64,000 bases of DNA from Trichomonas vaginalis G3 (lineage: Eukaryota > Parabasalia > Trichomonadida > Trichomonadidae). The notes beneath the pieces were generated by a model. That model saw only the letters and a program-made list of their open reading frames with translations. It had not been told where the DNA came from and searched no databases. Of this stretch, positions 35,008 through 63,915 are shown piece by piece. Position numbers and translations under genes: made by a program. The DNA is taken from NCBI RefSeq assembly GCF_026262505.1, contig NC_067206.1:39879660-39943659 (forward strand). Direction: 5' to 3'. Positions within the stretch are counted from its first letter, which is position 1; the number at the start of each line of letters is the position of its first letter.

Positions 35008-35011
35008 TTTT

Positions 35012-35635: not shown

Positions 35636-35658
35636 TTAATATTAGATAAAAATATCTC

Positions 35659-40678: not shown

Positions 40679-40735
40679 AAAACTTATACTCAAAAGTTAA
40701 ATCGAGAACATGAAGACAGAAATCATTTTAAGAAG

Positions 40736-41374
40736 ATGAAGTACGTTCCAATCGTGATCACTGGCCCAATTGGTGCAGGAAAATCAACATTAGCACGAAT
40801 GATTTCGAAACATCTTGCTATTGATTATGTAAAAGAATATATTGATATAAATGATGGCGAAGAGATGCTTCTAAAGTTCAAAGCGAATTCCATATCATCG
40901 CAAGATTTCCAAGAGTATATTCTTCAAACATACAAAAGCCAGCTCATGCATGTTAAAGGCAATGCATTTATAATGGAGAGACTTCCTGAAGAAGGTTCGA
41001 TCATTTTCAGCAACAGTGATAAAAGCATTCTTGAAAGAGTAGTTCAAGTTCAAGAAGAGTTTGATATTTATGGATACAAAGGAGAAGCAACAGTTCTCAC
41101 GATTCATAACAGTGGCCAAAGTACAGAAATGATAATGAATGAAGTACTTTGCACATTGTTCGGAACCAAACACGTTTCGCGAGAAATGCTGATTTATCTA
41201 AAGAGTTTGAACGGTATCATCATTTATTTGAGAACAACACCAGAGATGTGTATCGAAAGAATAAGAAGGAGAAACAGATTTGCTGAGAAGTCCATAACAT
41301 TGGATGATATGAAAGAAATGTGTAAAAAGTATGATACATACATCAATAATTTCAAGAACTACTATATTCAATAA
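40736..41374 (+). CDS. Deoxynucleoside-kinase-like P-loop kinase, copy 1, 212 aa
   Basis: It probably phosphorylates a nucleoside, supplying precursors for element replication. It begins MKYVPIVITGPIGAGKSTLA with the P-loop at residues 10-18. FIMERLPEEGSIIF near 80 resembles the ERS region of the dNK family, and ERIRRRNRFAEKSI near 185 matches the arginine-rich lid. The start is set by TCATTTTAAGAAG directly before the ATG, a host-type initiator, and by equal length in copies 2 and 3. The frame opens 26 codons earlier in flank. Thymidylate-kinase-like proteins are the main alternative. Confidence 0.75.
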   Translation: MKYVPIVITGPIGAGKSTLARMISKHLAIDYVKEYIDINDGEEMLLKFKANSISSQDFQEYILQTYKSQLMHVKGNAFIMERLPEEGSIIFSNSDKSILERVVQVQEEFDIYGYKGEATVLTIHNSGQSTEMIMNEVLCTLFGTKHVSREMLIYLKSLNGIIIYLRTTPEMCIERIRRRNRFAEKSITLDDMKEMCKKYDTYINNFKNYYIQ

Positions 41375-41640
41375 AAGAATATTTTTTTTTGAAATATTTA
41401 TATAATTATATATCATTTCTAAATATGCACAAAAATATCATGTGAATATACTTACATTAATAGAATAGATTACTGAATTAAGCAAATAACAAGTTAACAA
41501 CTTTATGAATAATGATAAAAGATATAGAATGCTTCCCACACTATAGTTTTTTTTTTAATTATGGCGAGTGTTCACCATATATCAGTCATTCATGAAATAA
41601 ACATTAATGAAAAAAAAATATTTAAAACTGGTACTTTTTA

Positions 41641-41910
41641 CTAATGATATAAACTATTTAAACTCTTAAGCATTTCAAGGTGAGAAATGATTTTGCATAT
41701 TGTGTAAGTTGCGGTTCTTGCTTCCTCAACAATCGTATTTATTGACCTTATGTAAGCTTCTGTATCGCTTTCATTCATCACACTTAAATTTTCAATGAAA
41801 TTGTCAATATCAATGAGATCCGGAGTTTGTTCATTAATAGTTCTTAAGAACTCAAATACTGAACTAAGTTCTGGATCTTGTGACAGAACATTGATAGAAA
41901 CACTTGACAT
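41641..41910 (-). CDS. Small acidic helical protein p89, copy 1
   Basis: This 89-residue protein is acidic, largely helical and of unrecognised family (MSSVSINVLSQDPELSSVFE...). CTCATTTTTCTCAGAAGAG precedes the ATG, a host-type initiator. Copies at 53328-53597 and 61624-61893 have the same protein, the last with Lys to Arg. It always sits between the kinase and W. Confidence 0.7.
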   Translation of the reverse strand: MSSVSINVLSQDPELSSVFEFLRTINEQTPDLIDIDNFIENLSVMNESDTEAYIRSINTIVEEARTATYTICKIISHLEMLKSLNSLYH

Positions 41911-42085
41911 CTCTTCTGAGAAAAATGAGATAATAGAAATTGAATTGATCTGGGCATGATTTTAAAAGTTCATCTTGAACTTTTCATATGATTGAAGGAA
42001 TGCAAATTTAATGAAATATTCTGAAATGATTTTATTAATCATTATATTTTAAATGGATATTTTTAATATTTACTATAAAAAAAAT

Positions 42086-42395
42086 TTACTTTTGAAGTAT
42101 TCATTCAAAAGTGATATTTGATCGTACTCAAAATTATTTTTTGTTTATAGTCTTATTTATGCTTATTATCGAATTATAACTGGTTTCCACTTTTGTGAAG
42201 AAGTAAATTTTCAATGAGAAAACAAAAGTTAACGTATAGTTTTTTATGTAGATATTTTACATGCGAAAAAGATAAAATTTATTCGAAAAATTGTTTAATA
42301 TCTTATGTATGCAATATTAATTTATCGTTCATCAAAATTATCGGAACCACTTTTGAGTACTTTTCGATTTTTGTCAAAAGTTAACTTTTGAATAG
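42086..42395 (+). repeat. W repeat, copy 1 (forward, helicase side)
   Basis: This 310-bp AT-rich repeat begins TTACTTTTGAAGTATTC and ends in the perfect palindrome TCAAAAGTTAACTTTTGA (42374-42391) plus ATAG. It lies between p89 and the helicase. It shares its variant bases with copy 4, the other helicase-side W. Confidence 0.9.
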
Positions 42396-42543
42396 CATCA
42401 GTAATATTTAAACTTTGTTATTTGAGAGGATATCTTTAATACTATATTTATTTTCAAAAATCTTTACAAATTTTTAAAATTTAAAATGATTTCACATCAT
42501 TTTTCATTTTTTCAATTTTATTTTATACCAGACGTGCTAGAGA

Positions 42544-45500
42544 ATGGTAGAAGTTGACCGCAGTGATAACATTGAGGAGTCAATTTTAAAATCTCTATCA
42601 TCAATAAAATTAAGCAATTCATTCATAAAAGATACAATTGAAGAGAAAGATGAAAAGATTAACTCTGGAGAGTATGGCGATCTATCGACACGCTCATTAC
42701 AAATACTGCTTGAAACAAATGAATTATCAATTGTTTCAGAAGGAAGTTTGGCTGCTTATACTAACGACCTACTAGAATTTTCTGATAGACCTACATCAAC
42801 AGATCATGTTGCTAACTCCATTCATGTCTCAATCAGGGTTCTCGATTCAATTGGAGATAAAGAGGCAACCAACTGTCTTCTTTCAAAGATACAAATCGAT
42901 CAAAGCAAGCACAATCACAAAATCGTATCTCCTGCTCATATCATTCATGCATACTGCTCGCATACAGATCATCTATCAATTGTACATGGATATTATGCAA
43001 ATTCATGTGCATATATTGCAGCAAACAAAGAAATGGATCACTTTTATGCATTATTGCAGTCTTATTCTTCAGACAATGAATATATAATAGCAGATTATAG
43101 TATTCATAGGTATTCAACGCATGAAGAGAAAATAAAATTAAGCTCCCTTGTGATTATATACTCTGTTATTTACTTAGATGAGAATAAGAGATCAATACCA
43201 AAAAGAATTGCTTCAGCTTCAGCTTCTAAATCATCAGTTATTGATGATTTAATTAAGATGAGCGCCATCTCAAGTGCTGGAATTCCAGTATCAGACTTTA
43301 TACCATCATTCAACTCTCTCGAAGAAGCAACAAAAAATGATCAGACAATAGCTATTTATTTTGATGATTTCCAAAACATTGTCGGATATCGAATTCTTAA
43401 TAAGATTTCTAGCATAATTTCTGATCCAAATGAAGGAAACTGTATTTCTTTTACGAAGATCGGACTGTTCATTTTACGTGGTACTCAGAAGAAAATAAGA
43501 AATGCATCAGATTCAGTTATCAAAGAATCATCAAATGGAGTTCAAAAGAGTATAAAGTCATATTCAATTGACATTTTCAACAAAGTATGCACATATCTTA
43601 TGGATAAATTCAAAGAAAGAAACTCAACATTTAATATAAATTTTGGAGATCCGATATCTGCGATGAATTTTGTAACAAAAATGCTATATGGCAAAAGTCC
43701 AAATGAAACTCAAGCTGCATTTGCACAATCAGCATTCAAAATAGACTCTAATTTTAAAAATCAAAGTAGAGTGTTTTTCTTATCAACACCACCAGGTTCA
43801 GGAAAAACTGCATGTGAAATAATGCCAGCTGTATTAGAGAGATTCAGACAAATTGATTCAAAAATAGGTGACGAAAAAGGATCAGTAATCATTGCAACTT
43901 CTTTAGTTCAAGTATCTGCTCAGATAGCAACATTTGCAAGCAAAATGATTTGCAGTAGTGAAAAATGGATCCGCGTCAAACGACTTGATGGAGGTATTAA
44001 AGAACAAACTGAAGATGGATATCATTCAAATATGTTATTTCGGAAAAAATCATTTCGAGAAAACATTGCTAATATCAAATGGTTTTACAAGCAGCTCGTT
44101 GATGACGAAAATATTCCTTCAATCGTTCAAGATCTAATGAAAAAATTTAATGTCAGCGAAAACAAAGAAATCGAAAATGAAATAACATCCGTATTTGAAG
44201 ACGAAAATTTATTCAGGAAAAAAGTATTTAGTGAAGTTTTAGATGGATTCGATTCAGAAAGTCAATGCATAGCAGATTGTATTGTTGGGACATATGAAAT
44301 GGTAGCATCAGCCTTATCATATTCAATTTCAACAGGAAAATCACAAGATATCATTCGAAAAATCAAATACATCATTATTGATGAATGGGACACTATTTTT
44401 AGGGTTGCTACAATGAACAACAATAGAACATTAATGCAAACAATGAATCAAAGATTTTCACAATCTTATTGCTTAATAGCTCTTGCTATACTAATAATGA
44501 AAGTTAATCCTTCAACAAAACTAATACTTGCATCTGGAACAGGAAATGAAATGCTGAATAAATGCGAGGATAACTTTAGAACAGGAAAACAATCGAACAT
44601 GCTTGAACCATTAATGAGACCGATAATTTCATACTGTGACTATGAATCCATCATTAAGAAGATTGAAGAATTATCAAATGATAAAAACAATGCTGCAGCA
44701 AATTTTTCACTCAATATAATGCGCAACAAAATTAAAACAATTGAAGAGTTTATGAAAGAAAGCATACCAAGAATGATCAAAATATCATCATCGAATATTT
44801 GGGGTACCAGAAAACTTTCATCATTACCAAAGTCAGTGCTTAGCACAGTAATGCAAGCATATACAATGGTTAATTATATATTTTGCGAAAAATGCATGAA
44901 TAGCGGGGTAATTCGCGCATCATATGCATTGAAATCTACAACAACAAACGATCATGTAATGCATACAATAATGCATCTTACAGCATTATTCTTAATTGAT
45001 ATGAATATTGCAGAAACAATCAAAATGCTTGCAAAATACCCATCAATGCAATCATGGATGTTTATGATATCAGTGATAATTTGCGTATTGACACACGAGA
45101 ATATGTCATTTAGTGAAAAGACTTCACTAATATTTATTCAAAAGAAAGAACTTCATATTGGCATGATGATTTTAATTGGAACAATTTTGCTTATTCTTAA
45201 GAAAGAAGGAAAAATCGATGCAGAATTCCTTTCAAATAGATCACCTCCAGATAATGAAATTTTAGAAACAATTGCAGCAATATCTGCAAAGCCTATAAAA
45301 TTTGTCGATAAATGTTCATCTATTGCACAAACAAGCAAATCATACTCAATTGATCACATAGTACATAAATCAGAGTTGACAAAAGAAAATTACGTAAAGA
45401 TAAAACAAATAACTAGCATTGACGAGGTCGATTATGCAGCATATGCCATTTCAAAAGATCTCTTGAAATTGAACTTTGATATTGACCATATATGGAATCT

Positions 45501-47334
45501 TTGCGAACTCTGCGTTGCAAATGGAATCATTTCTATTACACGCGAGACAGTAAGCCAGGAAAGCATGAACAAATATATAGGAAATCAAGATAATAACAGA
45601 ATTCCACTAATAGCTATTTGCACATCAAGACTTGGAGAGGGAGTTGACTTAGTGAATGTTGGATCTGTTTTTGTTATGGCTCAAAACCATTCATTAGGTA
45701 TCCCCACAAGCAGAGATTGCGAACAATGGATTGGAAGAGGATACAGAAATTCACATCTTTCACTTGGATGCCCAATAAACAATCCTGCATATGAAGATTA
45801 TAGAAGCTACTGTGCTGATGATCAAAATAAGTTTCAGTTTTCGCATACAGCAGTTTATAGTGGATTTCTTTCAACTCAAGTAGCAAGAAGAATCATTTCG
45901 ATCGATGCATTTTCTCCAATAATAAAAAAGCAAAATGGATCATTGTATCTGATGGACTTTCTACCAAAATCTTTTTCTGAATTAAATATTTCATATTATT
46001 CTCCATTGATTCTCGATCATTTGCAAGATGTAGATGGATCACCTAATATGAAATCAATTATATCATCAATAGAGTTAATGACAATACCAGCTAAAATGGT
46101 AATAAGGAAAACAAATATGTTCACTCTTACAGTAAGGGATATCACACAGTATATACCTGATTTAGTCATTACAGAAACACTTAGCATAGCATGCAATGTA
46201 TGGCCAATTTTTGTTTCATCAATGTATGTAGCACTTGTACGTAATTGCCATTTTGAAGAATCAAATTCTTTTCCTCTTATTCAATTTACAAAATCGGTTG
46301 CATCATGCATGTCAATTCTATCCCCGAAGTCACAAGAAAGTGAAGAGTATAAACTTTGGAATAATATTTATGAATCATTAAAAAGTCCTGATATAAATGC
46401 AGCATCACAGTTACTATCAAAACTTGGATTGAAGATGCCAGATATTTTTGAATACAGAACTATTTCACAGTTTAGTTTCACTATTGGCTCAAAAATAGCA
46501 AACTATAGTGGAATAGCATCTTTATACTTTATTTTTATTATTGGAGTGCTATCAACTGATACAAATATCGATGTTTTTGGACCAAATCCAGAAGGCTTTG
46601 AGAAAAAAGACATATTTGTGATTGATGAAGCAGCATCTAATATTATTGCAAACAATATGATGCTTGTTTTTGATTTGATTGTCACATTTGGTTTTGGAAT
46701 GAATTTGACAAATTTGGGAATTAGCAAATGTCAAAGAACAAAATATCCCCGAATTTATGAATCAAGTAATATTCATGTTTCACCTTGCAGCTGTAGGCCT
46801 TCACTGTATTATATGTGTAAAGAATATAATCCATTTATGATGAGAACGGGTGCAAATGATGAAATTATCATGAACTGTGAAAAAGAAGAAGACGTGTTCA
46901 AATGCTTTTCATCATGCTTCAATGCACTTTTATCTCTTAATGAAGAATATGACAGCTTATTCATTCATTTTACTGATGATGAAAATTGGACTCAATATTC
47001 AACCAAATTCAGTAATTTAATGGAATTACTCATAAAGAGAACAAAGACATCGCATGACCCTCGTTTAGAAGTATTTAGCGACGGGATGCGTAAACTTAAT
47101 GATATCTATGAAAACTTAAAAATACATTCTGATCAATTATCCGAAGCAATGTCACCATTTATTTCACTCATAAATGGATTTTGCTTCAATTTCTTACCGC
47201 AATTCTCAACTGAGAGCTACAATGATGATGAAATTGCCGAAAATTTCAAAAGATTTGTTTTAGTTGCTCTTAATGATATTGGGATAAATAATATTGAAGA
47301 AATAATTGTTCTTAGTAAGAAAACTTCTAATTGA
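42544..47334 (+). CDS. Giant superfamily 2 helicase, 1596 aa, intact
   Basis: Helicase motifs: I STPPGSGKTACE near residue 418, II IIIDEWD near 612, III LILASGTG near 660, V GEGVDLVNV near 1031, VI QWIGRGYRNS near 1061. About 400 residues before and 530 after the core match nothing I recognise, and about 370 residues separate motifs III and V. It is probably the replication or transcription helicase of the element. TTCATTTTTTC lies 40 bases before the ATG. Compared with copy 2 it lacks two single codons, in frame, and none of the frame breaks. The distant family is unknown. Confidence 0.8.
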   Translation: MVEVDRSDNIEESILKSLSSIKLSNSFIKDTIEEKDEKINSGEYGDLSTRSLQILLETNELSIVSEGSLAAYTNDLLEFSDRPTSTDHVANSIHVSIRVLDSIGDKEATNCLLSKIQIDQSKHNHKIVSPAHIIHAYCSHTDHLSIVHGYYANSCAYIAANKEMDHFYALLQSYSSDNEYIIADYSIHRYSTHEEKIKLSSLVIIYSVIYLDENKRSIPKRIASASASKSSVIDDLIKMSAISSAGIPVSDFIPSFNSLEEATKNDQTIAIYFDDFQNIVGYRILNKISSIISDPNEGNCISFTKIGLFILRGTQKKIRNASDSVIKESSNGVQKSIKSYSIDIFNKVCTYLMDKFKERNSTFNINFGDPISAMNFVTKMLYGKSPNETQAAFAQSAFKIDSNFKNQSRVFFLSTPPGSGKTACEIMPAVLERFRQIDSKIGDEKGSVIIATSLVQVSAQIATFASKMICSSEKWIRVKRLDGGIKEQTEDGYHSNMLFRKKSFRENIANIKWFYKQLVDDENIPSIVQDLMKKFNVSENKEIENEITSVFEDENLFRKKVFSEVLDGFDSESQCIADCIVGTYEMVASALSYSISTGKSQDIIRKIKYIIIDEWDTIFRVATMNNNRTLMQTMNQRFSQSYCLIALAILIMKVNPSTKLILASGTGNEMLNKCEDNFRTGKQSNMLEPLMRPIISYCDYESIIKKIEELSNDKNNAAANFSLNIMRNKIKTIEEFMKESIPRMIKISSSNIWGTRKLSSLPKSVLSTVMQAYTMVNYIFCEKCMNSGVIRASYALKSTTTNDHVMHTIMHLTALFLIDMNIAETIKMLAKYPSMQSWMFMISVIICVLTHENMSFSEKTSLIFIQKKELHIGMMILIGTILLILKKEGKIDAEFLSNRSPPDNEILETIAAISAKPIKFVDKCSSIAQTSKSYSIDHIVHKSELTKENYVKIKQITSIDEVDYAAYAISKDLLKLNFDIDHIWNLCELCVANGIISITRETVSQESMNKYIGNQDNNRIPLIAICTSRLGEGVDLVNVGSVFVMAQNHSLGIPTSRDCEQWIGRGYRNSHLSLGCPINNPAYEDYRSYCADDQNKFQFSHTAVYSGFLSTQVARRIISIDAFSPIIKKQNGSLYLMDFLPKSFSELNISYYSPLILDHLQDVDGSPNMKSIISSIELMTIPAKMVIRKTNMFTLTVRDITQYIPDLVITETLSIACNVWPIFVSSMYVALVRNCHFEESNSFPLIQFTKSVASCMSILSPKSQESEEYKLWNNIYESLKSPDINAASQLLSKLGLKMPDIFEYRTISQFSFTIGSKIANYSGIASLYFIFIIGVLSTDTNIDVFGPNPEGFEKKDIFVIDEAASNIIANNMMLVFDLIVTFGFGMNLTNLGISKCQRTKYPRIYESSNIHVSPCSCRPSLYYMCKEYNPFMMRTGANDEIIMNCEKEEDVFKCFSSCFNALLSLNEEYDSLFIHFTDDENWTQYSTKFSNLMELLIKRTKTSHDPRLEVFSDGMRKLNDIYENLKIHSDQLSEAMSPFISLINGFCFNFLPQFSTESYNDDEIAENFKRFVLVALNDIGINNIEEIIVLSKKTSN

Positions 47335-47635
47335 TCAAATAGTGTATTTCATTTATGTATATATAAAATATTTATTATTTAACTATTTCCATTCACTGAT
47401 TTTTTGTCATCATACTATAACATATCGGAATATAAATCATTTCAATTTGTTTTGAGTATCATAAATCCATTAAAATTTAAAAAAAGATACAATAAAGTGA
47501 ATGATAAATACTATGTACTTATATTAATAAAATGAAATATTATTTAGAAAATATATTTTCTCATATAATTAATCTCATTATTCATTAAATAAAAGTAAAT
47601 ATAAATAATTTTGAATTTGTTTAGTTAAAGCTAAA

Positions 47636-47980
47636 TCACTCTTTCTTCTTTATTTGCTTGCGTGTATTTTTGGTACTTTTCGAAACAAGCACATTAACAA
47701 GTGTATTATTAATTATTGGAGCAATTCTTTCACTAAAATCAATATCAGATGCCATACCAAACGCAATTGCTTTGCAGAGATCAATATCACTTTTGATGCT
47801 TTCGTTGAAAACATTAGATGCCTCAACAAACTTTAGTGCTCTTTCAAAGTTCTCTGAAGTAGTTTTTGGCATATCATTATTTTTTTCTTCTTTCACTGAA
47901 TCGGATTCAGTAGTATGTGGGGCATATTGATAAGGAGCCTTAGAGTGAAACTTGCCACCGTATGGAGACTTGGATGACAT
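47636..47980 (-). CDS. Unknown protein p114, copy 1
   Basis: 114 residues: a basic/aromatic front (MSSKSPYGGKFHSKAPYQYAP), an acidic linker, a helical middle with an aspartate-rich turn, and a strongly basic end (KSTKNTRKQIKKKE). Identical protein at 55552-55896. It might be a small DNA-binding or nuclear protein. It converges on the helicase with a 300-base AT-rich gap that holds nothing obvious. TCAATA stands just before the ATG, a weaker initiator than in the other genes. Confidence 0.7.
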   Translation of the reverse strand: MSSKSPYGGKFHSKAPYQYAPHTTESDSVKEEKNNDMPKTTSENFERALKFVEASNVFNESIKSDIDLCKAIAFGMASDIDFSERIAPIINNTLVNVLVSKSTKNTRKQIKKKE

Positions 47981-48503
47981 TATTGATTAATAAAAATTTC
48001 TATATCTTCTCAAAACTACATTTTATATGATTTAAGATCAAAAACTATCATTGTAATATTAACTATTGAGCAATTATAAGCGAAATTAAAAAAAATTTGA
48101 CTCAAAAGTTATTTGAATAGTATCACAATTTTATTTAGTTTTGAGAATCATTCAAAAGTAGATTTACGAAAATAAGTTTTACTAATATAAATAATAATTT
48201 GCATTATCTTAATCCCTAAACTGTACAAAAAGAGAAAAAAGTCTTTTAAGTGTGATTTAATGAATTAAAATCTTTAAATATATCATCTGATAATTATGAT
48301 TACATTTAAAAGATGAAAAGAAATAAACAGTATTTATACATATAAAATATTACTATAATACACATATCTACCGAAAGTATCTGCATTTTTTCAAAAGTAT
48401 GCATTTACACTTATGTTTATTTTCACAAAGTTAATTGTAATGTGTGTGGATACATAGATGTTGGCAAAAAAATAACTCACTATAGTAGTTAAAATAATAT
48501 TTA
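47981..48503. promoter_or_regulatory. Intergenic region with TCAAAAGT motifs
   Basis: This 523-bp stretch lies upstream of p114 and downstream of p274. It has at least three TCAAAAGT octamers (near 48103, 48151 and 48394) and no plausible frame. The inverted copy is 55028-55551. Confidence 0.5.
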
Positions 48504-49328
48504 TTAATTTTCTTCATTTTCATCAATATTTGATTCACAATTATTCAAGTCATAATAATCAACAAAAGGTTCGGATATAGTGCTGTTATCAACCCACTTT
48601 TCAGAGCTACCCAATGCATCAACTTCAACATCCATTGTACACTGCTCATCAGATCCTGATGCAAAATCTGTGAGAGCTTTGTATCCTATTTTGACTGAAT
48701 TACCTGGATAGTCAACACAGTGAATTATTATTTCTGATATATCTTTTCCCCATGGATTTTCTCTATTTATCATTCTATGGGCAAGTTCGATTTCTTGAAC
48801 TTTGTCGAATCCTATTGAAGAGAGAATCTGGCGATTCAACTTATTCTTTTGATAGATATCATACAATTCATCGATAACATCATAAAAGATTATTGGAAGC
48901 CATTTGCAAAAAAGAGTTGCATCATGCATGTCTATCTTTGCACATATAACATCAACTTTTCCACTAGCTAAAGCAAGTTTTGTCCAGTCAAATATGCTGA
49001 AAGGAAATATGTAGTATTTGCTTCTCCTGAAACTTGGACTGACAAGGAATTCAGGGTATTCTGTGTCTATTGGAATTATAGAAATCCTACAAAAAGCAGG
49101 TGCTTGCATTTTGGATAATGCAAACATTGTTGGGCCCATCAGCATTGCCTGCCTTTCTTCTTCATTTTTACTACAGAATTGCTCTCTGCTAGAGATCATT
49201 TTCGTAATTAATCTTCTCATTGCGATATCAGGTACTATATTATCTGGATAAATGAGCTGTGGTGACCAAAAACTATTAATATTATGCTCTTCACCATTTG
49301 TTATATCTTTTACTTCCTGAGAGTCCAT
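48504..49328 (-). CDS. Unknown protein p274, copy 1
   Basis: This 274-residue protein appears folded, with many aromatic residues (RRSKYYIFPFSIFDWTKLALASG), Cys residues spread through it and an acidic end (NNCESNIDENEEN). Identical protein at 54203-55027. TTCATTTTTTATT directly precedes the ATG, the clearest initiator of the set. No family was recognised; a tyrosine-recombinase signature was looked for and not found. Confidence 0.75.
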   Translation of the reverse strand: MDSQEVKDITNGEEHNINSFWSPQLIYPDNIVPDIAMRRLITKMISSREQFCSKNEEERQAMLMGPTMFALSKMQAPAFCRISIIPIDTEYPEFLVSPSFRRSKYYIFPFSIFDWTKLALASGKVDVICAKIDMHDATLFCKWLPIIFYDVIDELYDIYQKNKLNRQILSSIGFDKVQEIELAHRMINRENPWGKDISEIIIHCVDYPGNSVKIGYKALTDFASGSDEQCTMDVEVDALGSSEKWVDNSTISEPFVDYYDLNNCESNIDENEEN

Positions 49329-49447
49329 AATAAAAAATGAATTTTGTGAATAATTTTCATATATTCAAAAAGATATCTAAAATAAAAACAATAATCCAGA
49401 TAATGCCTCTTAAACGAAATAAATTAAAATTGGTAGATAATAGACAA

Positions 49448-49758
49448 CTATTCAAAAAGTTAACTTTTGACAAAAATCGAAAAGTACTCAAAAGTGGTTC
49501 CGATAATTTTGATGAACGATAAATTAATATTGCATAAATAAGATATTAAACAATTTTTCGAATAAATTTTATCTTTTTCGCATGTAAAATATCTACATAA
49601 AAAATTATACGTTAACTTTTGTTTTCTCATTGAAAATTTACTTCTTCACAAAAGTGGAAACCAGTTATAATTCGATAATAAGCATAAATAAAACTATAAA
49701 CAAAAAATAATTTTGAGTACGATCAAATATCACTTTTGAATGAATAATTCAAAAGTAA
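49448..49758 (-). repeat. W repeat, copy 2 (reverse, p274 side)
   Basis: Reverse-oriented W. The palindrome carries one extra A (TTCAAAAAGTTAACTTTTGA), and the outer end reads GAATTATTC on the W strand, variants shared with copy 3, the other p274-side W. Confidence 0.9.
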
Positions 49759-50062
49759 GATTTTAAAATTAGTCCCTTTCAAATTTAATAATACTTCAAA
49801 ATTTTATGTTGATTGAGATATAATTCTATTTATTAATCAATGATTTATTTGAAATTAATATTTTTTTCAATAAATGTCTTATCAATCTAATTCAAATCCC
49901 ATCAATATTAGAAGAAATATGTTTGAAAACACAATATAAATACAAAACATGTATAAATTTTGAAATTTATATAAAAAAATAATAAATTAAGATAATTTAA
50001 TTGATAATAAGTAATAAATTAGGATTGTATTAATGAAATATACAAAAATTATTAGTATTAAG

Positions 50063-51403: not shown

Positions 51404-51694
51404 TATTAAAAATGAACTCATAATGAAAATTTTAAAAATAATTTTCAGAGCTGAACAAATTATAGTATATAAAAAGAATTAAACAAATGATGTCCAATTA
51501 AACAAAAATCAATCAAATCAAAATTTAAATTTCCTTCAAAAGTGTTTCCGATAATTTTAATAAAAGTGAACGATTATGTATAAATCAAAGAGTACTTCTT
51601 TTTATCGACGATCCAAAATTTTATTTTATTTCTCTCAAAAGTAGAACACTGAGAATAAAAATTGTGAAGAACTTTCAAAAAAAATCAATATTTA

Positions 51695-53064: not shown

Positions 53065-53327
53065 AAGAATATTTTTTTTTGAAATATTTATATAATTATA
53101 TATCATTTCTAAATATGCACAAAAATATCATGTGAATATACTTACATTAATAGAATAGATTACTGAATTAAGCAAATAACAAGTTAACAACTTTATGAAT
53201 AATGATAAAAGATATAGAATGCTTCCCACACTATAGTTTTTTTTTAATTATGGCGAGTGTTCACCATATATCAGTCATTCATGAAATAAACATTAATGAA
53301 AAAAAATATTTAAAACTGGTACTTTTA

Positions 53328-53597
53328 CTAATGATATAAACTATTTAAACTCTTAAGCATTTCAAGGTGAGAAATGATTTTGCATATTGTGTAAGTTGCG
53401 GTTCTTGCTTCCTCAACAATCGTATTTATTGACCTTATGTAAGCTTCTGTATCGCTTTCATTCATCACACTTAAATTTTCAATGAAATTGTCAATATCAA
53501 TGAGATCCGGAGTTTGTTCATTAATAGTTCTTAAGAACTCAAATACTGAACTAAGTTCTGGATCTTGTGACAGAACATTGATAGAAACACTTGACAT
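53328..53597 (-). CDS. Small acidic helical protein p89, copy 2
   Basis: Same 89 residues as 41641-41910. Runs of T and A around it are one base shorter than in copy 1. Function unknown. Confidence 0.7.
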   Translation of the reverse strand: MSSVSINVLSQDPELSSVFEFLRTINEQTPDLIDIDNFIENLSVMNESDTEAYIRSINTIVEEARTATYTICKIISHLEMLKSLNSLYH

Positions 53598-53771
53598 CTC
53601 TTCTGAGAAAAATGAGATAATAGAAATTGAATTGATCTGGGCATGATTTTAAAAGTTCATCTTGAACTTTTCATATGATTGAAGGAATGCAAATTTAATG
53701 AAATATTCTGAAATGATTTTATTAATCATTATATTTTAAATGGATATTTTTAATATTTACTATAAAAAAAT

Positions 53772-54083
53772 TTACTTTTGAATTATTCATTCAAAAGTGA
53801 TATTTGATCGTACTCAAAATTATTTTTTGTTTATAGTTTTATTTATGCTTATTATCGAATTATAACTGGTTTCCACTTTTGTGAAGAAGTAAATTTTCAA
53901 TGAGAAAACAAAAGTTAACGTATAATTTTTTTATGTAGATATTTTACATGCGAAAAAGATAAAATTTATTCGAAAAATTGTTTAATATCTTATTTATGCA
54001 ATATTAATTTATCGTTCATCAAAATTATCGGAACCACTTTTGAGTACTTTTCGATTTTTGTCAAAAGTTAACTTTTTGAATAG
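53772..54083 (+). repeat. W repeat, copy 3 (forward, p274 side)
   Basis: Forward W, but followed by p274 rather than the helicase. It carries the variants of copy 2 (extra T in the palindrome; GAATTATTC at the outer end; ATAATTTTTTTATG in the middle). So the W next to p274 is one allele in both arms. Confidence 0.9.
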
Positions 54084-54202
54084 TTGTCTATTATCTACCA
54101 ATTTTAATTTATTTCGTTTAAGAGGCATTATCTGGATTATTGTTTTTATTTTAGATATCTTTTTGAATATATGAAAATTATTCACAAAATTCATTTTTTA
54201 TT

Positions 54203-55027
54203 ATGGACTCTCAGGAAGTAAAAGATATAACAAATGGTGAAGAGCATAATATTAATAGTTTTTGGTCACCACAGCTCATTTATCCAGATAATATAGTACC
54301 TGATATCGCAATGAGAAGATTAATTACGAAAATGATCTCTAGCAGAGAGCAATTCTGTAGTAAAAATGAAGAAGAAAGGCAGGCAATGCTGATGGGCCCA
54401 ACAATGTTTGCATTATCCAAAATGCAAGCACCTGCTTTTTGTAGGATTTCTATAATTCCAATAGACACAGAATACCCTGAATTCCTTGTCAGTCCAAGTT
54501 TCAGGAGAAGCAAATACTACATATTTCCTTTCAGCATATTTGACTGGACAAAACTTGCTTTAGCTAGTGGAAAAGTTGATGTTATATGTGCAAAGATAGA
54601 CATGCATGATGCAACTCTTTTTTGCAAATGGCTTCCAATAATCTTTTATGATGTTATCGATGAATTGTATGATATCTATCAAAAGAATAAGTTGAATCGC
54701 CAGATTCTCTCTTCAATAGGATTCGACAAAGTTCAAGAAATCGAACTTGCCCATAGAATGATAAATAGAGAAAATCCATGGGGAAAAGATATATCAGAAA
54801 TAATAATTCACTGTGTTGACTATCCAGGTAATTCAGTCAAAATAGGATACAAAGCTCTCACAGATTTTGCATCAGGATCTGATGAGCAGTGTACAATGGA
54901 TGTTGAAGTTGATGCATTGGGTAGCTCTGAAAAGTGGGTTGATAACAGCACTATATCCGAACCTTTTGTTGATTATTATGACTTGAATAATTGTGAATCA
55001 AATATTGATGAAAATGAAGAAAATTAA
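54203..55027 (+). CDS. Unknown protein p274, copy 2 (inverted arm)
   Basis: Protein identical to 48504-49328, on the opposite strand as part of inverted U1. TTCATTTTTTATT precedes the ATG. Confidence 0.75.
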   Translation: MDSQEVKDITNGEEHNINSFWSPQLIYPDNIVPDIAMRRLITKMISSREQFCSKNEEERQAMLMGPTMFALSKMQAPAFCRISIIPIDTEYPEFLVSPSFRRSKYYIFPFSIFDWTKLALASGKVDVICAKIDMHDATLFCKWLPIIFYDVIDELYDIYQKNKLNRQILSSIGFDKVQEIELAHRMINRENPWGKDISEIIIHCVDYPGNSVKIGYKALTDFASGSDEQCTMDVEVDALGSSEKWVDNSTISEPFVDYYDLNNCESNIDENEEN

Positions 55028-55551
55028 TAAATATTATTTTAACTACTATAGTGAGTTATTTTTATTGCCAACATCTATGTATCCACACACATTACAATTA
55101 ACTTTGTGAAAATAAACATAAGTGTAAATGCATACTTTTGAAAAAATGCAGATACTTTCGGTAGATATGTGTATTATAGTAATATTTTATATGTATAAAT
55201 ACTGTTTATTTCTTTTCATCTTTTAAATGTAATCATAATTATCAGATGATATATTTAAAGATTTTAATTCATTAAATCACACTTAAAAGACTTTTTTCTC
55301 TTTTTGTACAGTTTAGGGATTAAGATAATGCAAATTATTATTTATATTAGTAAAACTTATTTTCGTAAATCTACTTTTGAATGATTCTCAAAACTAAATA
55401 AAATTGTGATACTATTCAAATAACTTTTGAGTCAAATTTTTTTTAATTTCGCTTATAATTGCTCAATAGTTAATATTACAATGATAGTTTTTGATCTTAA
55501 ATCATATAAAATGTAGTTTTGAGAAGATATAGAAATTTTTATTAATCAATA

Positions 55552-55896
55552 ATGTCATCCAAGTCTCCATACGGTGGCAAGTTTCACTCTAAGGCTCCTT
55601 ATCAATATGCCCCACATACTACTGAATCCGATTCAGTGAAAGAAGAAAAAAATAATGATATGCCAAAAACTACTTCAGAGAACTTTGAAAGAGCACTAAA
55701 GTTTGTTGAGGCATCTAATGTTTTCAACGAAAGCATCAAAAGTGATATTGATCTCTGCAAAGCAATTGCGTTTGGTATGGCATCTGATATTGATTTTAGT
55801 GAAAGAATTGCTCCAATAATTAATAATACACTTGTTAATGTGCTTGTTTCGAAAAGTACCAAAAATACACGCAAGCAAATAAAGAAGAAAGAGTGA
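55552..55896 (+). CDS. Unknown protein p114, copy 2 (inverted arm)
   Basis: Protein identical to 47636-47980. It converges on the broken helicase copy with a 300-base AT-rich gap that mirrors 47335-47635. Confidence 0.7.
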   Translation: MSSKSPYGGKFHSKAPYQYAPHTTESDSVKEEKNNDMPKTTSENFERALKFVEASNVFNESIKSDIDLCKAIAFGMASDIDFSERIAPIINNTLVNVLVSKSTKNTRKQIKKKE

Positions 55897-56197
55897 TTTA
55901 GCTTTAACTAAACAAATTCAAAATTATTTATATTTACTTTTATTTAATGAATAATGAGATTAATTATATGAGAAAATATATTTTCTAAATAATATTTCAT
56001 TTTATTAATATAAGTACATAGTATTTATCATTCACTTTATTGTATCTTTTTTTAAATTTTAATGGATTTATGATACTCAAAACAAATTGAAATGATTTAT
56101 ATTCCGATATGTTATAGTATGATGACAAAAAATCAGTGAATGGAAATAGTTAAATAATAAATATTTTATATATACATAAATGAAATACACTATTTGA

Positions 56198-59100
56198 TCA
56201 ATTAGAAGTTTTCTTACTAAGAACAATTATTTCTTCAATATTATTTATCCCAATATCATTAAGAGCAACTAAAACAAATCTTTTGAAATTTTCGGCAATT
56301 TCATCATCATTGTAGCTCTCAGTTGAGAATTGCGGTAAGAAATTGGAGCAAAATCCATTTATGAGTGAAATAAATGGTGACATTGCTTCGGATAATTGAT
56401 CAGAATGTATTTTAAGTTTTCATAGATATCATTAAGTTTACGCATCCCGTCGCTAAATACTTCTAAACGAGGGTCATGCGATGTCTTTGTTCTCTTTATG
56501 AGTAATTCCATTAAATTACTGAATTTGGTTGAATATTGAGTCCAATTTTCATCATCAGTAAAATGAATGAATAAGCTGTCATATTCTTCATTAAGAGATA
56601 AAAGTGCATTGAAGCATGATGAAAAGCATTTGAACACGTCTTCTTCTTTTTCACAGTTCATGATAATTTCATCATTTGCACCCGTTCTCATCATAAATGG
56701 ATTATATTCTTTACACATATAATACAGTGAAGGCCTACAGCTGCAAGGTGAAACATGAATATTACTTGATTCATAAATTCGGGGATATTTTGTTCTTTGA
56801 CATTTGCTAATTCCCAAATTTGTCAAATTCATTCCAAAACCAAATGTGACAATCAAATCAAAAACAAGCATCATATTGTTTGCAATAATATTAGATGCTG
56901 CTTCATCAATCACAAATATGTCTTTTTTCTCAAAGCCTTCTGGATTTGGTCCAAAAACATCGATATTTGTATCAGTTGATAGCACTCCAATAATAAAAAT
57001 AAAGTATAAAGATGCTATTCCACTATAGTTTGCTATTTTTGAGCCAATAGTGAAACTAAACTGTGAAATAGTTCTGTATTCAAAAATATCTGGCATCTTC
57101 AATCCAAGTTTTGATAGTAACTGTGATGCTGCATTTATATCAGGACTTTTTAATGATTCATAAATATTATTCCAAAGTTTATACTCTTCACTTTCTTGTG
57201 ACTTCGGGATAGAATTGACATGCATGATGCAACCGATTTTGTAAATTGAATAAGAGGAAAAGAATTTGATTCTTCAAAATGGCAATTACGTACAAGTGCT
57301 ACATACATTGATGAAACAAAAATTGGCCATACATTGCATGCTATGCTAAGTGTTTCTGTAATGACTAAATCAGGTATATACTGTGTGATATCCCTTACTG
57401 TAAGAGTGAACATATTTGTTTTCCTTATTACCATTTTAGCTGGTATTGTCATTAACTCTATTGATGATATAATTGATTTCATATTAGGTGATCCATCTAC
57501 ATCTTGCAAATGATCGAGAATCAATGGAGAATAATATGAAATATTTAATTCAGAAAAAGATTTTGGTAGAAAGTCCATCAGATACAATGATCCATTTTGC
57601 TTTTTTATTATTGGAGAAAATGCATCGATCGAAATGATTCTTCTTGCTACTTGAGTTGAAAGAAATCCACTATAAACTGCTGTATGCGAAAACTGAAACT
57701 TATTTTGATCATCAGCACAGTAGCTTCTATAATCTTCATATGCAGGATTGTTTATTGGGCATCCAAGTGAAAGATGTGAATTTCTGTATCCTCTTCCAAT
57801 CCATTGTTCGCAATCTCTGCTTGTGGGGATACCTAATGAATGGTTTTGAGCCATAACAAAAACAGATCCAACATTCACTAAGTCAACTCCCTCTCCAAGT
57901 CTTGATGTGCAAATAGCTATTAGTGGAATTCTGTTATTATCTTGATTTCCTATATATTTGTTCATGCTTTCCTGGCTTACTGTCTCGCGTGTAATAGAAA
58001 TGATTCCATTTGCAACGCAGAGTTCGCAAAGATTCCATATATGGTCAATATCAAAGTTCAATTCAAGAGATCTTTTGAAATGGCATATGCTGCATAATCG
58101 ACCTCGTCAATGCTAGTTATTTGTTTTATCTTTACGTAATTTTCTTTGTCAACTCTGATTTATGTACTATGTGATCAATTGAGTATGATTTGCTTGTTTG
58201 TGCAATAGATGAACATTTATCGACAAATTTTATAGGCTTTGCAGATATTGCTGCAATTGTTTCTAAAATTTCATTATCTGGAGGTGATCTATTTGAAAGG
58301 AATTCTGCATCGATTTTTCCTTCTTTCTTAAGAATAAGCAAAATTGTTCCAATTAAAATCATCATGCCAATATGAAGTTCTTTCTTTTGAATAAATATTA
58401 GTGAAGTCTTTTCACTAAATGACATATTCTCGTGTGTCAATACGCAAATTATCACTGATATCATAAACATCCATGATTGCATTGATGGGTATTTTGCAAG
58501 CATTTTGATTGTTTCTGCAATATTCATATCAATTAAGAATAATGCTGTAAGATGCATTATTGTATGCATTACATGATCGTTTGTTGTTGTAGATTTCAAT
58601 GCATATGATGCGCGAATTACCCCGCTATTCATGCATTTTTCGCAAAATATATAATTAACCATTGTATATGCTTGCATTACTGTGCTAAGCACTGACTTTG
58701 GTAATGATGAAAGTTTTCTGGTACCCCAAATATTCGATGATGATATTTTGATCATTCTTGGTATGCTTTCTTTCATAAACTCTTCAATTGTTTTAATTTT
58801 GTTGCGCATTATATTGAGTGAAAAATTTGCTGCAGCATTGTTTTTATCATTTGATAATTCTTCAATCTTCTTAATGATGGATTCATAGTCACAGTATGAA
58901 ATTATCGGTCTCATTAATGGTTCAAGCATGTTCGATTGTTTTCCTGTTCTAAAGTTATCCTCGCATTTATTCAGCATTTCATTTCCTGTTCCAGATGCAA
59001 GTATTAGTTTTGTTGAAGGATTAACTTTCATTATTAGTATAGCAAGAGCTATTAAGCAATAAGATTGTGAAAATCTTTGATTCATTGTTTGCATTAATGT

Positions 59101-60990
59101 TCTATTGTTGTTCATTGTAGCAACCCTAAAAATAGTGTCCCATTCATCAATAATGATGTATTTGATTTTTCGAATGATATCTTGTGATTTTCCTGTTGAA
59201 ATTGAATATGATAAGGCTGATGCTACCATTTCATATGTCCCAACAATACAATCTGCTATGCATTGACTTTCTGAATCGAATCCATCTAAAACTTCACTAA
59301 ATACTTTTTTCCTGAATAAATTTTCGTCTTCAAATACGGATGTTATTTCATTTTCGATTTCTTTGTTTTCGCTGACATTAAATTTTTTCATTAGATCTTG
59401 AACGATTGAAGGAATATTTTCGTCATCAACGAGCTGCTTGTAAAACCATTTGATATTAGCAATGTTTTCTCGAAATGATTTTTTCCGAAATAACATATTT
59501 GAATGATATCCATCTTCAGTTTGTTCTTTAATACCTCCATCAAGTCGTTTGACGCGGATCCATTTTTCACTACTGCAAATCATTTTGCTTGCAAATGTTG
59601 CTATCTGAGCAGATACTTGAACTAAAGAAGTTGCAATGATTACTGATCCTTTTTCGTCACCTATTTTTGAATCAATTTGTCTGAATCTCTCTAATACAGC
59701 TGGCATTATTTCACATGCAGTTTTTCCTGAACCTGGTGGTGTTGATAAGAAAAACACTCTACTTTGATTTTTAAAATTAGAGTCTATTTTGAAAATTGCT
59801 GATTGTGCAAATGCAGCTTGAGTTTCATTTGGACTTTTGCCATATAGCATTTTTGTTACAAAATTCATCGCAGATATCGGATCTCCAAAATTTATATTAA
59901 ATGTTGAGTTTCTTTCTTTGAATTTATCCATAAGATATGTGCATACTTTGTTGAAAATGTCAATTGAATATGACTTTATACTCTTTTGAACTCCATTTGA
60001 TGATTCTTTGATAACTGAATCTGATGCATTTCTTATTTTCTTCTGAGTACCACGTAAAATGAACAGTCCGATCTTCGTAAAAGAAATACAGTTTCCTTCA
60101 TTTGGATCAGAAATTATGCTAGAAATCTTATTAAGAATTCGATATCCGACAATGTTTTGGAAATCATCAAAATAAATAGCTATTGTCTGATCATTTTTTG
60201 TTGCTTCTTCGAGAGAGTTGAATGATGGTATAAAGTCTGATACTGGAATTCCAGCACTTGAGATGGCGCTCATCTTAATTAAATCATCAATAACTGATGA
60301 TTTAGAAGCTGAAGCTGAAGCAATTCTTTTTGGTATTGATCTCTTATTCTCATCTAAGTAAATAACAGAGTATATAATCACAAGGGAGCTTAATTTTATT
60401 TTCTCTTCATGCGTTGAATACCTATGAATACTATAATCTGCTATTATATATTCATTGTCTGAAGAATAAGACTGCAATAATGCATAAAAGTGATCCATTT
60501 CTTTGTTTGCTGCAATATATGCACATGAATTTGCATAATATCCATGTACAATTGATAGATGATCTGTATGCGAGCAGTATGCATGAATGATATGAGCAGG
60601 AGATACGATTTTGTGATTGTGCTTGCTTTGATCGATTTGTATCTTTGAAAGAAGACAGTTGGTTGCCTCTTTATCTCCAATTGAATCGAGAACCCTGATT
60701 GAGACATGAATGGAGTTAGCAACATGATCTGTTGATGTAGGTCTATCAGAAAATTCTAGTAGGTCGTTAGTATAAGCAGCCAAACTTCCTTCTGAAACAA
60801 TTGATAATTCATTTGTTTCAAGCAGTATTTGTAATGAGCGTGTCGATAGATCGCCATACTCTCCAGAGTTAATCCAGTTTTCATCTTTCTCTTCAATTGT
60901 ATCTTTTATGAATGAATTGCTTAATTTTATTGATGATAGAGATTTTAAAATTGACTCCTCAATGTTATCACTGCGGTCAACTTCTACCAT
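56198..60990 (-). pseudogene. Giant superfamily 2 helicase, copy 2, four frame breaks
   Basis: The same gene as 42544-47334, inverted. Single-base losses, each in a short run, shift the frame near 58140, 58065, 57210 and 56410; between them the protein is near-identical. The helicase core up to motif III is in the first open part (58132-60990, 952 aa); motifs V and VI are in the second (57150-58061). Two extra codons relative to copy 1 are in frame. All breaks are in homopolymers, so sequencing error cannot be excluded. Confidence 0.75.
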
Positions 60991-61138
60991 TCTCTAGCAC
61001 GTCTGGTATAAAATAAAATTGAAAAAATGAAAAATGATGTGAAATCATTTTAAATTTTAAAAATTTGTAAAGATTTTTGAAAATAAATATAGTATTAAAG
61101 ATATCCTCTCAAATAACAAAGTTTAAATATTACTGATG

Positions 61139-61448
61139 CTATTCAAAAGTTAACTTTTGACAAAAATCGAAAAGTACTCAAAAGTGGTTCCGATAATTTT
61201 GATGAACGATAAATTAATATTGCATACATAAGATATTAAACAATTTTTCGAATAAATTTTATCTTTTTCGCATGTAAAATATCTACATAAAAAACTATAC
61301 GTTAACTTTTGTTTTCTCATTGAAAATTTACTTCTTCACAAAAGTGGAAACCAGTTATAATTCGATAATAAGCATAAATAAGACTATAAACAAAAAATAA
61401 TTTTGAGTACGATCAAATATCACTTTTGAATGAATACTTCAAAAGTAA
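61139..61448 (-). repeat. W repeat, copy 4 (reverse, helicase side)
   Basis: Reverse W next to the helicase start of the inverted arm. It has the perfect 18-bp palindrome and the GAAGTATTC outer end of copy 1. Confidence 0.9.
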
Positions 61449-61623
61449 ATTTTTTTTATAGTAAATATTAAAAATATCCATTTAAAATATAATGATTAAT
61501 AAAATCATTTCAGAATATTTCATTAAATTTGCATTCCTTCAATCATATGAAAAGTTCAAGATGAACTTTTAAAATCATGCCCAGATCAATTCAATTTCTA
61601 TTATCTCATTTTTCTCAGAAGAG

Positions 61624-61893
61624 ATGTCAAGTGTTTCTATCAATGTTCTGTCACAAGATCCAGAACTTAGTTCAGTATTTGAGTTCTTAAGAACTATTAA
61701 TGAACAAACTCCGGATCTCATTGATATTGACAATTTCATTGAAAATTTAAGTGTGATGAATGAAAGCGATACAGAAGCTTACATAAGGTCAATAAATACG
61801 ATTGTTGAGGAAGCAAGAACCGCAACTTACACAATATGCAGAATCATTTCTCACCTTGAAATGCTTAAGAGTTTAAATAGTTTATATCATTAG
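61624..61893 (+). CDS. Small acidic helical protein p89, copy 3
   Basis: As copies 1 and 2 with one Lys to Arg change (TICRIIS). Opposite strand, in inverted U2. Confidence 0.7.
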   Translation: MSSVSINVLSQDPELSSVFEFLRTINEQTPDLIDIDNFIENLSVMNESDTEAYIRSINTIVEEARTATYTICRIISHLEMLKSLNSLYH

Positions 61894-62158
61894 TAAAAAG
61901 TACCAGTTTTAAATATTTTTTTTCATTAATGTTTATTTCATGAATGACTGATATATGGTGAACACTCGCCATAATTAAAAAAAAAACTATAGTGTGGGAA
62001 GCATTCTATATCTTTTATCATTATTCATAAAGTTGTTAACTTGTTATTTGCTTAATTCAGTAATCTATTCTATTAATGTAAGTATATTCACATGATATTT
62101 TTGTGCATATTTAGAAATGATATATAATTATATAAATATTTCAAAAAAAAATATTCTT

Positions 62159-62797
62159 TTATTGAATATAGTAGTTCTTGAAACTATTGATGTATGTATC
62201 ATACTTTTTACACATTTCTTTCATATCATCCAATGTTATGGACTTCTCAGCAAATCTGTTTCTCCTTCTTATTCTTTCGATACACATCTCTGGTGTTGTT
62301 CTCAAATAAATGATGATACCGTTCAAACTCTTTAGATAAATCAGCATTTCTCGCGAAACGTGTTTGGTTCCGAACAATGTGCAAAGTACTTCATTCATTA
62401 TCATTTCTGTACTTTGGCCACTGTTATGAATCGTGAGAACTGTTGCTTCTCCTTTGTATCCATAAATATCAAACTCTTCTTGAACTTGAACTGCTCTTTC
62501 AAGAATGCTTTTATCACTGTTGCTGAAAATGATCGAACCTTCTTCAGGAAGTCTCTCCATTATAAATGCATTGCCTTTAACATGCATGAGCTGGCTTTTG
62601 TATGTTTGAAGAATATACTCTTGGAAATCTTGCGATGATATGGAATTCGCTTTGAACTTTAGAAGCATCTCTTCGCCATCATTTATATCAATATATTCTT
62701 TTACATAATCAATAGCAAGATGTTTCGAAATCATTCGTGCTAATGTTAATTTTCCTGCACCAATTGGGCCAGTGATCACGATTGGAACGTACTTCAT
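62159..62797 (-). CDS. Deoxynucleoside-kinase-like kinase, copy 3, P-loop altered
   Basis: 212 residues, open throughout, but the P-loop reads GPIGAGKLT: the Ser after the invariant Lys is Leu through one C-to-T change (TCA to TTA). That residue binds magnesium in P-loop kinases, so the copy is probably inactive. RAVQVQEEF replaces RVVQVQEEF. Other motifs are intact. Confidence 0.7.
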   Translation of the reverse strand: MKYVPIVITGPIGAGKLTLARMISKHLAIDYVKEYIDINDGEEMLLKFKANSISSQDFQEYILQTYKSQLMHVKGNAFIMERLPEEGSIIFSNSDKSILERAVQVQEEFDIYGYKGEATVLTIHNSGQSTEMIMNEVLCTLFGTKHVSREMLIYLKSLNGIIIYLRTTPEMCIERIRRRNRFAEKSITLDDMKEMCKKYDTYINSFKNYYIQ

Positions 62798-62988
62798 CTT
62801 CTTAAAATGATTTCTGTCTTCATGTTCTCGATTTAACTTTTGAGTATAAGTTTTGAATGAAATATTTCAATTTTTTTGAATACAGTTAGTTGGTGGGAAA
62901 TTAGTTGTTCTAAAAATGATAATTGATCAAAATACAATTAAAATATATAATATCAACTCAATTTTTAAATTTTATTTCATTTTTTATT

Positions 62989-63524
62989 ATGTTCTTTCAA
63001 GAAAGGAAAGACATATTTCGAAATATTTTCGATTTCGCCATTCATGCAGTTAAAGAAAATGCGATGAACACAGAGAGTTACAAGGAAATAGAATTAAATT
63101 TCTCAGATGCAATGAATGATAAAAACGACTACCATCCAGCTTTGCAACAGCATTTTCGATCTGCAAATCTGCATTGGGATCATTTTCGATGTACGTCGAA
63201 CTAATTGCTCCATATTTTCATGCTTCAGATAGAATATCAAGATTTGAAGATCTTTTAAGACTTCTTGAAGATCTTGGACTTTATGATTGCGAAAAATGTG
63301 CAGAGATGATGCAACTTTGCACAATAGGTCAGAATGAACTAGGAATCCCTGAATTCTCTGACAAGATAAAGCTTTGTGAAAATTTTCATATCGAAATTAA
63401 TAAATTTCTTACAAAGTCAATGAATATGAACCAAAAAAATGAAAAATTCAGAACAGGAATATATGCATTAGTCTATTTATGCATTAATAACTCTGAATTT
63501 ATAGAACTTTATGATAGATTATAA
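62989..63524 (+). pseudogene. Unknown helical protein p178, copy 2, frameshifted
   Basis: Same gene as 51695-52231, inverted. One base is missing near 63140 (CCAGCTTTGC against CCAGCTGTTGC), which splits it into two frames (62923-63204 and 63174-63524). One further substitution changes Ile to Asn. Similarity to U2 ends about 170 bases after its stop. Confidence 0.7.
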
Positions 63525-63915
63525 TAAATATTGATTTTTTTTTTGAAAGTTCTTCACAATTTTTATTCTCAGTGTTCTACTTTTGAGAGAAATAAAATAA
63601 AATTTTGGATCGTCGATAAAAAGAAGTACTCTTTGATTTATACATAATCGTTCACTTTTATTAAAATTATCGGAAACACTTTTGAAGGAAATTCAAATTG
63701 CATTTATTTTTGATTCAGATGCTGTTCGACAATAGAAGAAAAAATAGTCATAATCTGCATAATATGTTATTATTTTGAATAATAACCCATCGAAATGATG
63801 GTCAGTATTTCGGCTTTTATTCCATCAATAAATTTAGAAAATTCTCTTTTTATTCCAATGTTGATTTTTGCGAATTATAGAAGATTTTGAACATCATAAA
63901 ATAGATTTGATTAAA

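Follow-up and report, generated by a model that had tools for sequence, protein, structure and literature searches.

Introduction

Few natural plasmids of eukaryotes have been documented, the nuclear plasmids of Dictyostelium and the yeast 2-micron plasmid being rare cases set out in a passage of PMC11962162. The inverted repeats of the 2-micron plasmid are 599 bp long with the recombinase target inside, double rolling-circle replication of this plasmid begins by recombination between them, and herpesvirus unique segments bounded by inverted repeats also vary in orientation (portions of PMC3147054). Here, we describe a ~23-kb array in Trichomonas vaginalis G3, in which two unique segments, U1 and U2, are divided by an inverted repeat, W. 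The window, that is, the whole stretch analyzed, is 64,000 nucleotides long (contig C4:39879660-39943659), and the assembly searched comprised 180.85 Mb in 86 contigs (an excerpt of PMC12316389 gives ~180 Mb for the G3 assembly). We propose, with moderate confidence, that an 11.7-kb selfish element, replicating as an isomerizing circle, formed a multimer and that the array is an integrated ~23-kb piece of it; judged from the sequence, isomerization is plausible.

Results

A terminally redundant and circularly permuted array

Self-comparison of the window resolved the order U2 tail, W1, U1, W2, U2, W3, inverted U1, W4 and inverted U2 tail:

40679..42080, plus strand: U2 tail, left partial copy, last 1.4 kb; host/element junction at 40679; direct repeat of 52369-53766
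42081..42395, plus strand: W1, left allele (self-comparison)
42396..49447, plus strand: U1, forward copy, 7.05 kb (self-comparison and assembly search)
49448..49764, minus strand: W2, right allele (self-comparison)
49765..53766, plus strand: U2, complete copy, 4,002 bp (self-comparison and assembly search)
53767..54083, plus strand: W3, right allele joined to the U2 end; sole non-canonical junction, where orientation switches
54084..61138, minus strand: U1, inverted copy (self-comparison and assembly search)
61139..61453, minus strand: W4, left allele (self-comparison)
61454..63699, minus strand: U2 tail, inverted partial copy, last 2.2 kb; element/host junction at 63693-63699

The unit is W-U1-W'-U2, ~11.7 kb long, and its two W are mutually inverted, with a length of 315-317 bp across the four copies. 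One full permuted unit extends from 40679 to 52368, and the stretch that follows, 52369-53766, repeats that unit's start; taken with its W, the left U2 tail recurs in direct orientation as the middle one, at 99.3% identity and a spacing of 11,690 bp. On the right the array ends at 63693-63699, a range set by one mismatch, and its inverted arms of 9.09 kb are 99.8% identical. The ~23 kb amount to 1.97 units: 1.12 head-to-tail units with a period of 11,690 bp, then 0.85 unit in the opposed orientation, joined at W3. The array sequence is terminally redundant and circularly permuted, and since the start of the unit is repeated beyond one complete permuted unit, a circle or a concatemer was needed at some stage.

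An earlier reading of the window, made from its letters alone (the sequence-only reading), had noticed four W repeats in the order +, -, +, - and a 7.05-kb U1 lying between W copies once forward and once inverted, and self-comparison confirmed both. It had also described U2 as one complete forward copy and one inverted partial copy at the right, which held true; a second partial copy, in direct orientation, lies at the left end. The ~11.7-kb circle or concatemer that it postulated is supported by the terminal redundancy and circular permutation, and its estimate of about two captured units agrees with the value above.

W had four matches in the whole assembly, all within the array. Likewise, both near-identical copies of U1, and the one full and two partial near-identical copies of U2, were in the array, all other matches to either segment being relatives of 65-69% identity; the kinase segment of U2 had three near-identical matches assembly-wide. 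We also considered a separate contig as an 11.7-kb episome. Contigs C14 (11,691 bp) and C26 (11,703 bp) fit in length, and their first 10 kb were without the element, so we regard the fit as coincidence. The array is an insertion between ordinary genes: the open reading frames (ORFs) on its left we take to be of the BspA-like repeat type, and those on its right ankyrin-like and cyclase-like (all named by eye). GC content is 28.8% for one unit versus 34.9% for the window left of the array. By eye, no target-site duplication was visible at 40679, at 63699 or at the outer W edges around U1.

A single orientation switch at the edge of W3

We next compared the four junctions with expected sets, for which the arrangements were written out by hand with no simulation. 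W1 joins U2end to U1left, W2 joins U1right to U2start, W3 joins U2end to U1right and W4 joins U1left to U2end. Three of the four possible flank combinations are therefore present (U2end-U1left twice, U1right-U2start once and U2end-U1right once), and the U2start-U1left junction is missing from the array. W3 alone departs from a plain concatemer, and orientation changes once, at a W. This bears out the proposal of the sequence-only reading that orientation switches at the inverted W, and of the four flank combinations that it proposed to look for, three exist as assembled. Its flip-flop of U1 is not supported as stated: if U1 had simply flipped between two W, a pair of odd junctions would be expected, including U2start-U1left, whereas there is one new junction and the right partial U2 is inverted as well. 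Two opposed concatemers meeting at a W leave one odd junction, as seen here; a larger inversion with its far end lost would look the same. Two other arrangements were rejected, namely a hairpin-ended (poxvirus-like) concatemer, because the sequence at the W3 switch does not form a symmetric palindrome from the end of the unit, and W-U1-W as a transposon with terminal inverted repeats inside U2, which is without a transposase family and without a duplication at its edges.

The W alleles placed the switch more finely. W1 and W4 are exactly identical, and the identity of W2 and W3 to this pair is 98%. Five differences divide W1/W4 from W2/W3, all five following the end of U1 and none following U2; a sixth difference, one additional base in a run, occurs in W3 alone. 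Bases that track U2 occur only outside the W homology. Since the W alleles stay with the U1 ends, the W3 switch must lie inside an 11-bp shared stretch, TTACTTTTGAA, at the outer edge of W3. This stretch is the first arm of a near-palindrome present in W:

53772..53800, plus strand: 29-bp near-palindrome at the W3 outer edge, two ACTTTTGA-type arms around a 5-bp center
49730-49758 (W2): the near-palindrome in this copy
42086-42114 (W1) and 61420-61448 (W4): the near-palindrome with one more mismatch each

If crossovers were spread evenly, the chance of a switch in that stretch would be ~3.5% by our own arithmetic (11 in ~310 bp). The position is suggestive of a site-specific or fork-stall process, and is not proof of one.

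Two distinct copies of U1

The copies in the array differ by private substitutions and in-frame insertions and deletions. A further comparison came from the database protein that matches the helicase ORF of U1, TVAG_168400 of G3. This older protein differs from the left helicase in four columns and has the right-copy state in four of four (three read directly in the right-copy ORF, the fourth via the DNA difference between the copies), which shows that two distinct U1 copies are real and are not one molecule read twice. The misassembly of a single unit that the sequence-only reading had raised against itself is thus contradicted, for U1, by TVAG_168400 and the private differences; two distinct copies do not by themselves prove the copy order. 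The frame breaks of the inverted helicase lie in base runs and resemble consensus error, and as TVAG_168400 belongs to that allele and is itself open, they may be assembly error.

The three U2 tails differ at five substitution sites in 1.4 kb. Between the left and right arms there is one substitution in 7.7 kb of W-U1-W versus four in the 1.4-kb U2 tail (binomial p 0.0025, post hoc; the count excludes two mismatches, at 49759-49760, that fall directly beyond the W homology). The U2 tails 40679-42080 and 61454-62854 have thus diverged more than U1, though they lie within the same inverted arms. Either U1 was homogenized or the array ends have another history.

Six genes and their upstream motifs

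The unit carries six ORFs:

40736..41374, plus strand: deoxynucleoside kinase-like (dNK) ORF, left copy, 212 aa (Pfam dNK, 1.6e-21)
42544..47334, plus strand: SF2 helicase ORF, 1596 aa, open copy (Pfam DEAD, 1.3e-7)
47636..47980, minus strand: p114, basic orphan ORF (this and all following from the ORF list)
48504..49328, minus strand: p274, acidic orphan ORF, forward U1 copy
50063..51421, minus strand: p452, acidic orphan ORF
51695..52231, minus strand: p178, acidic orphan ORF
52426..53064, plus strand: dNK-like ORF, middle copy
54203..55027, plus strand: p274, inverted U1 copy
55552..55896, plus strand: p114, inverted U1 copy
56359..60990, minus strand: helicase, inverted copy, frame in pieces in the assembly
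62159..62797, minus strand: dNK-like ORF, inverted copy, P-loop substitution
63189..63524, plus strand: p178 fragment, inverted copy

In the array, frames are open in the forward helicase, in both copies of p274 and of p114, in p452 and p178, and in two of the kinase copies. The inverted helicase and inverted p178 are broken, and the inverted kinase has the P-loop substitution. The helicase contains motif-like strings I, II, III, V and VI in that order; the predicted structure of its core was unusable (predicted local distance difference test score, pLDDT, 30).

Searches of Pfam, PHROGs, NCBIfam and protein databases bore out the earlier impression that this gene content matches no named element family. 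For p114, p274, p452 and p178, nothing was above cut-off in Pfam or NCBIfam or reached E < 0.05 in PHROGs, and in these three collections no capsid or integrase family was found among the six ORFs. Among 5.8 billion proteins, the helicase had two matches (7998 best candidates scored), and p274 and p452 matched a single protein each, identical or start-shifted. Viral contigs yielded no relatives for the helicase, kinase or p452 (p114, p274 and p178 were not among the queries). The helicase had no match in phage records or prokaryote genome contigs, and against plasmids it gave only three chance-level matches (E = 1).

A short motif, ACTTTTGA, occurs 45 times in the window versus 8.4 in shuffles. 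Per unit, 16 of 17 occurrences fall in 3.2 kb of intergenic DNA versus 0.5 expected under a first-order model, although nine of these 16 sit in the two W copies and hence are not all independent. Each of the six genes has at least one ACTTTTGA within 260 nt upstream. The motif may serve in promoters, as an iteron in replication, or in both roles; its identity with the T. vaginalis M3 promoter motif was rejected, as the M3 pattern given in a section of PMC9203502 differs. The two ends of the array fall within U2, at distances of 11 and 8-14 bp from a ACTTTTGA; equally close are 3.0% and 2.4-3.6% of U2 positions, and 6.5-9.8% of intergenic ones (post hoc). TCATT begins at most 13 nt from the ATG in four of the six genes, the exceptions being the helicase and p114, against a background for the wider pattern TCAYW of 14-16% of 20-nt intergenic windows. 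A T. vaginalis initiator is described in part of PMC9203502, and TCATT near start codons would suit expression in the nucleus.

Divergent relatives in the same genome

Two divergent relatives of the element are present in the assembly, with helicases 58% and 33-36% identical to that of the array. The matches by gene were:

C6:19168114 (plus) and C6:19229567 (minus): helicase relatives, 58%, one stop each
C4:40140905-40145418, minus strand: helicase relative, 33-36%, in two pieces
C6 pair (52%) and C4:40146610 (30%): p274 relatives
C6:19162729 (plus, 56%) and C6:19236687 (minus, 51%), both with stops, and C4:40147270 (30%, with a stop): p178 relatives
C4:40136378: kinase relative, 48%, with a stop
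C5:29941706, C1:15826198 and C3:22071687: kinase relatives, 42-50%, with no helicase match near

In the genome search, p114 matched in the array only. For p452, one relative was read at the C6 locus (34%), and the C6 pair shows traces of it at the DNA level. The kinase relatives on C5, C1 and C3 are possibly host genes. At the locus C4:40136378-40147785, ~200 kb from the window, the kinase, helicase, p274 and p178, some with stops, lie within 11.4 kb, a span close to the unit size of the array. In the relatives, the genes stand in a different order.

At C6:19162729-19237187, where 18.7 kb of sequence was read, the relative is an inverted pair with arms ~99-100% identical, interrupted by other sequence that includes a high-copy repeat; a further ORF has a damaged right-hand copy. 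Its center is 6.1 kb long and contains a coiled-coil-like ORF of 2010 aa, a probable host gene; this center is single-copy except for ~70 bp at the 5' side, for which 43 further matches were obtained (202 candidates, 40 of them scored). Inverted pairs are thus found at two of the three loci of the element family.

Relative to C6, the ratio of nonsynonymous to synonymous substitution rates (dN/dS) was 0.19 for part of the helicase (1224 codons), 0.20 for p274 and 0.31 for p452; with dS at 1.6-2.0, nearly saturated, these values are rough. The three genes look to be under selection, and by these comparisons the array's unit belongs to an old, selected element family. In our searches, this family was met only in T. 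vaginalis sequence. P0002 was rejected as proof that another species carries the element, since it shares 98.9% identity with this genome's own C6 copy.

Elsewhere in the window, left of the array, a ~6-kb direct duplication (2039-8153 and 30345-36651) has 95% identity between copies 28 kb apart, and 23224-28813 is dense in short direct and inverted repeats, ~77-97% identical.

Discussion

We reasoned that the array could have arisen as follows. The element would have replicated as a circle or concatemer, during which the W at the U2 end recombined with the opposite W, at or beside the outer palindrome; copying would then have proceeded in reverse orientation, so that two head-to-tail runs came to oppose each other, as happens in double rolling-circle replication. 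A portion of this product would have joined the chromosome between the BspA-like and ankyrin-like genes, where no target duplication is visible. Both helicase and kinase would serve replication, and the recombining enzyme at W may be the host's own homologous recombination. By analogy with the 2-micron plasmid, such a structure is expected of a double rolling-circle product, whose geometry we infer ourselves.

Several observations weigh against an integrated multimer of an isomerizing circle. Neither a free circle nor a dispersed close copy was found when the assembly, which is weak evidence on circles, was searched with W, U1 and U2, and the element was not in the first 10 kb of the 25 contigs read among the 80 from C7 to C86. 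No recombinase, initiator or polymerase family was found among the six ORFs in Pfam, PHROGs or NCBIfam, a negative that would miss a very divergent recombinase, the p274 predicted structure being unusable (pLDDT 34). The argument from W3 rests on a single event. The W2 near-palindrome is the top-scoring palindrome of the 11.7-kb unit only narrowly (11 versus 10 for the next), and the W1 version scored below the list cut-off. ACTTTTGA is rare at the C6 relative, with three matches in 18.7 kb, and so is not a family-wide site. Finally, the probable host gene at the center of the C6 pair favors an inverted duplication made in the chromosome at that locus.

Inverted duplication in the chromosome is the main rival, which we consider possible if rather unlikely here. 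In this case, a permuted unit or a tandem integrated once, and the inverted half was made in place by break-induced replication, a template switch between inverted W or repair-driven inverted duplication, with no isomerizing episome needed. The C6 relative, with its near-identical arms around a probable host gene, fits this account, and the single substitution in the W-U1-W arms versus four in the U2 tail looks as if U1 had been copied or homogenized later in place. However, the left 13.1 kb already runs beyond one head-to-tail unit, an arrangement that requires a circle or concatemer stage, and the proximity of both array ends, in U2, to ACTTTTGA (11 and 8-14 bp, noted post hoc) also speaks against it.

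Our preferred reading, the integrated multimer, can be widened to an undescribed trichomonad family of natural nuclear plasmids (or plasmid-like viruses). Its members, which would have orphan acidic proteins in addition to a nucleoside kinase and a giant SF2 helicase, would use 2-micron-like double rolling-circle replication via a candidate W-edge site and would sometimes be caught in chromosomes as inverted dimers. In this full form the proposal is doubtful.

That a tandem or single unit was misassembled as an inverted array is improbable. Repeats of 98-100% identity and the frame breaks of the inverted helicase in base runs would favor such an artifact, but the copies have private substitutions and in-frame insertions and deletions, TVAG_168400 shows the right-copy state in four of four columns, and the W allele pairing (W1 = W4, W2 ~ W3) is not readily given by a chance misjoin. 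We give equally little credence to a larger DNA virus or giant transposon that integrated and of which the six genes survive. In its favor, large DNA viruses have kinases of this family and SF2 helicases, and the relatives in this genome differ in gene order. Against it, the divergent C4 relative has a similar unit size with four genes in 11.4 kb, no capsid, polymerase or integrase family was found in the six ORFs, and the three proteins searched against viral contigs (helicase, kinase and p452, with p114, p274 and p178 not among the queries) had no relatives there.

A title and abstract search found no published description of such a Trichomonas element (most subscription papers and bioRxiv were outside its coverage), and TVAG_168400 was not in the five best of 7,518 literature matches for that name, ranked by number of matching terms. 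If the family does replicate extrachromosomally, it would be a natural plasmid in a deep-branching human parasite, with inverted-repeat amplification served by unrelated genes. Even if chromosomal only, it is an element family with conserved, function-unassigned genes in a genome much studied for mobile DNA.

Among known systems, cytoplasmic linear plasmids carry their own DNA and RNA polymerase genes, whereas neither polymerase family was found among the six ORFs. The Maverick/Polinton elements of T. vaginalis are long DNA elements with long terminal inverted repeats and hallmark genes for protein-primed DNA polymerase B, integrase, capsid and ATPase. W flanks U1 as their terminal repeats do; however, the six ORFs are without the hallmark families, there is no visible target-site duplication, and the array is a permuted multimer with close copies at a single locus. 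As in herpesvirus isomerization, unique segments are bounded by inverted repeats and differ in orientation between copies, but the unit is far smaller, shows one switch instead of four isomers, and yielded no capsid, terminase, polymerase or other virion or herpes replication family. The plasmids of the Dictyostelium Ddp2 and Ddp5 families, with inverted repeats in Ddp2, are likewise natural nuclear plasmids of a protist; by description, their gene content differs. From the yeast 2-micron plasmid the element differs in unit size (11.7 kb versus ~6 kb), in carrying a large SF2 helicase and a nucleoside kinase, in having no recognized Flp-type tyrosine recombinase or Rep-like gene among the six ORFs (the p274 model being unusable), and in being seen only integrated. 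With that plasmid it shares two unique regions divided by inverted repeats, a near-palindrome in the repeat and an arrangement such as a double rolling circle would give.

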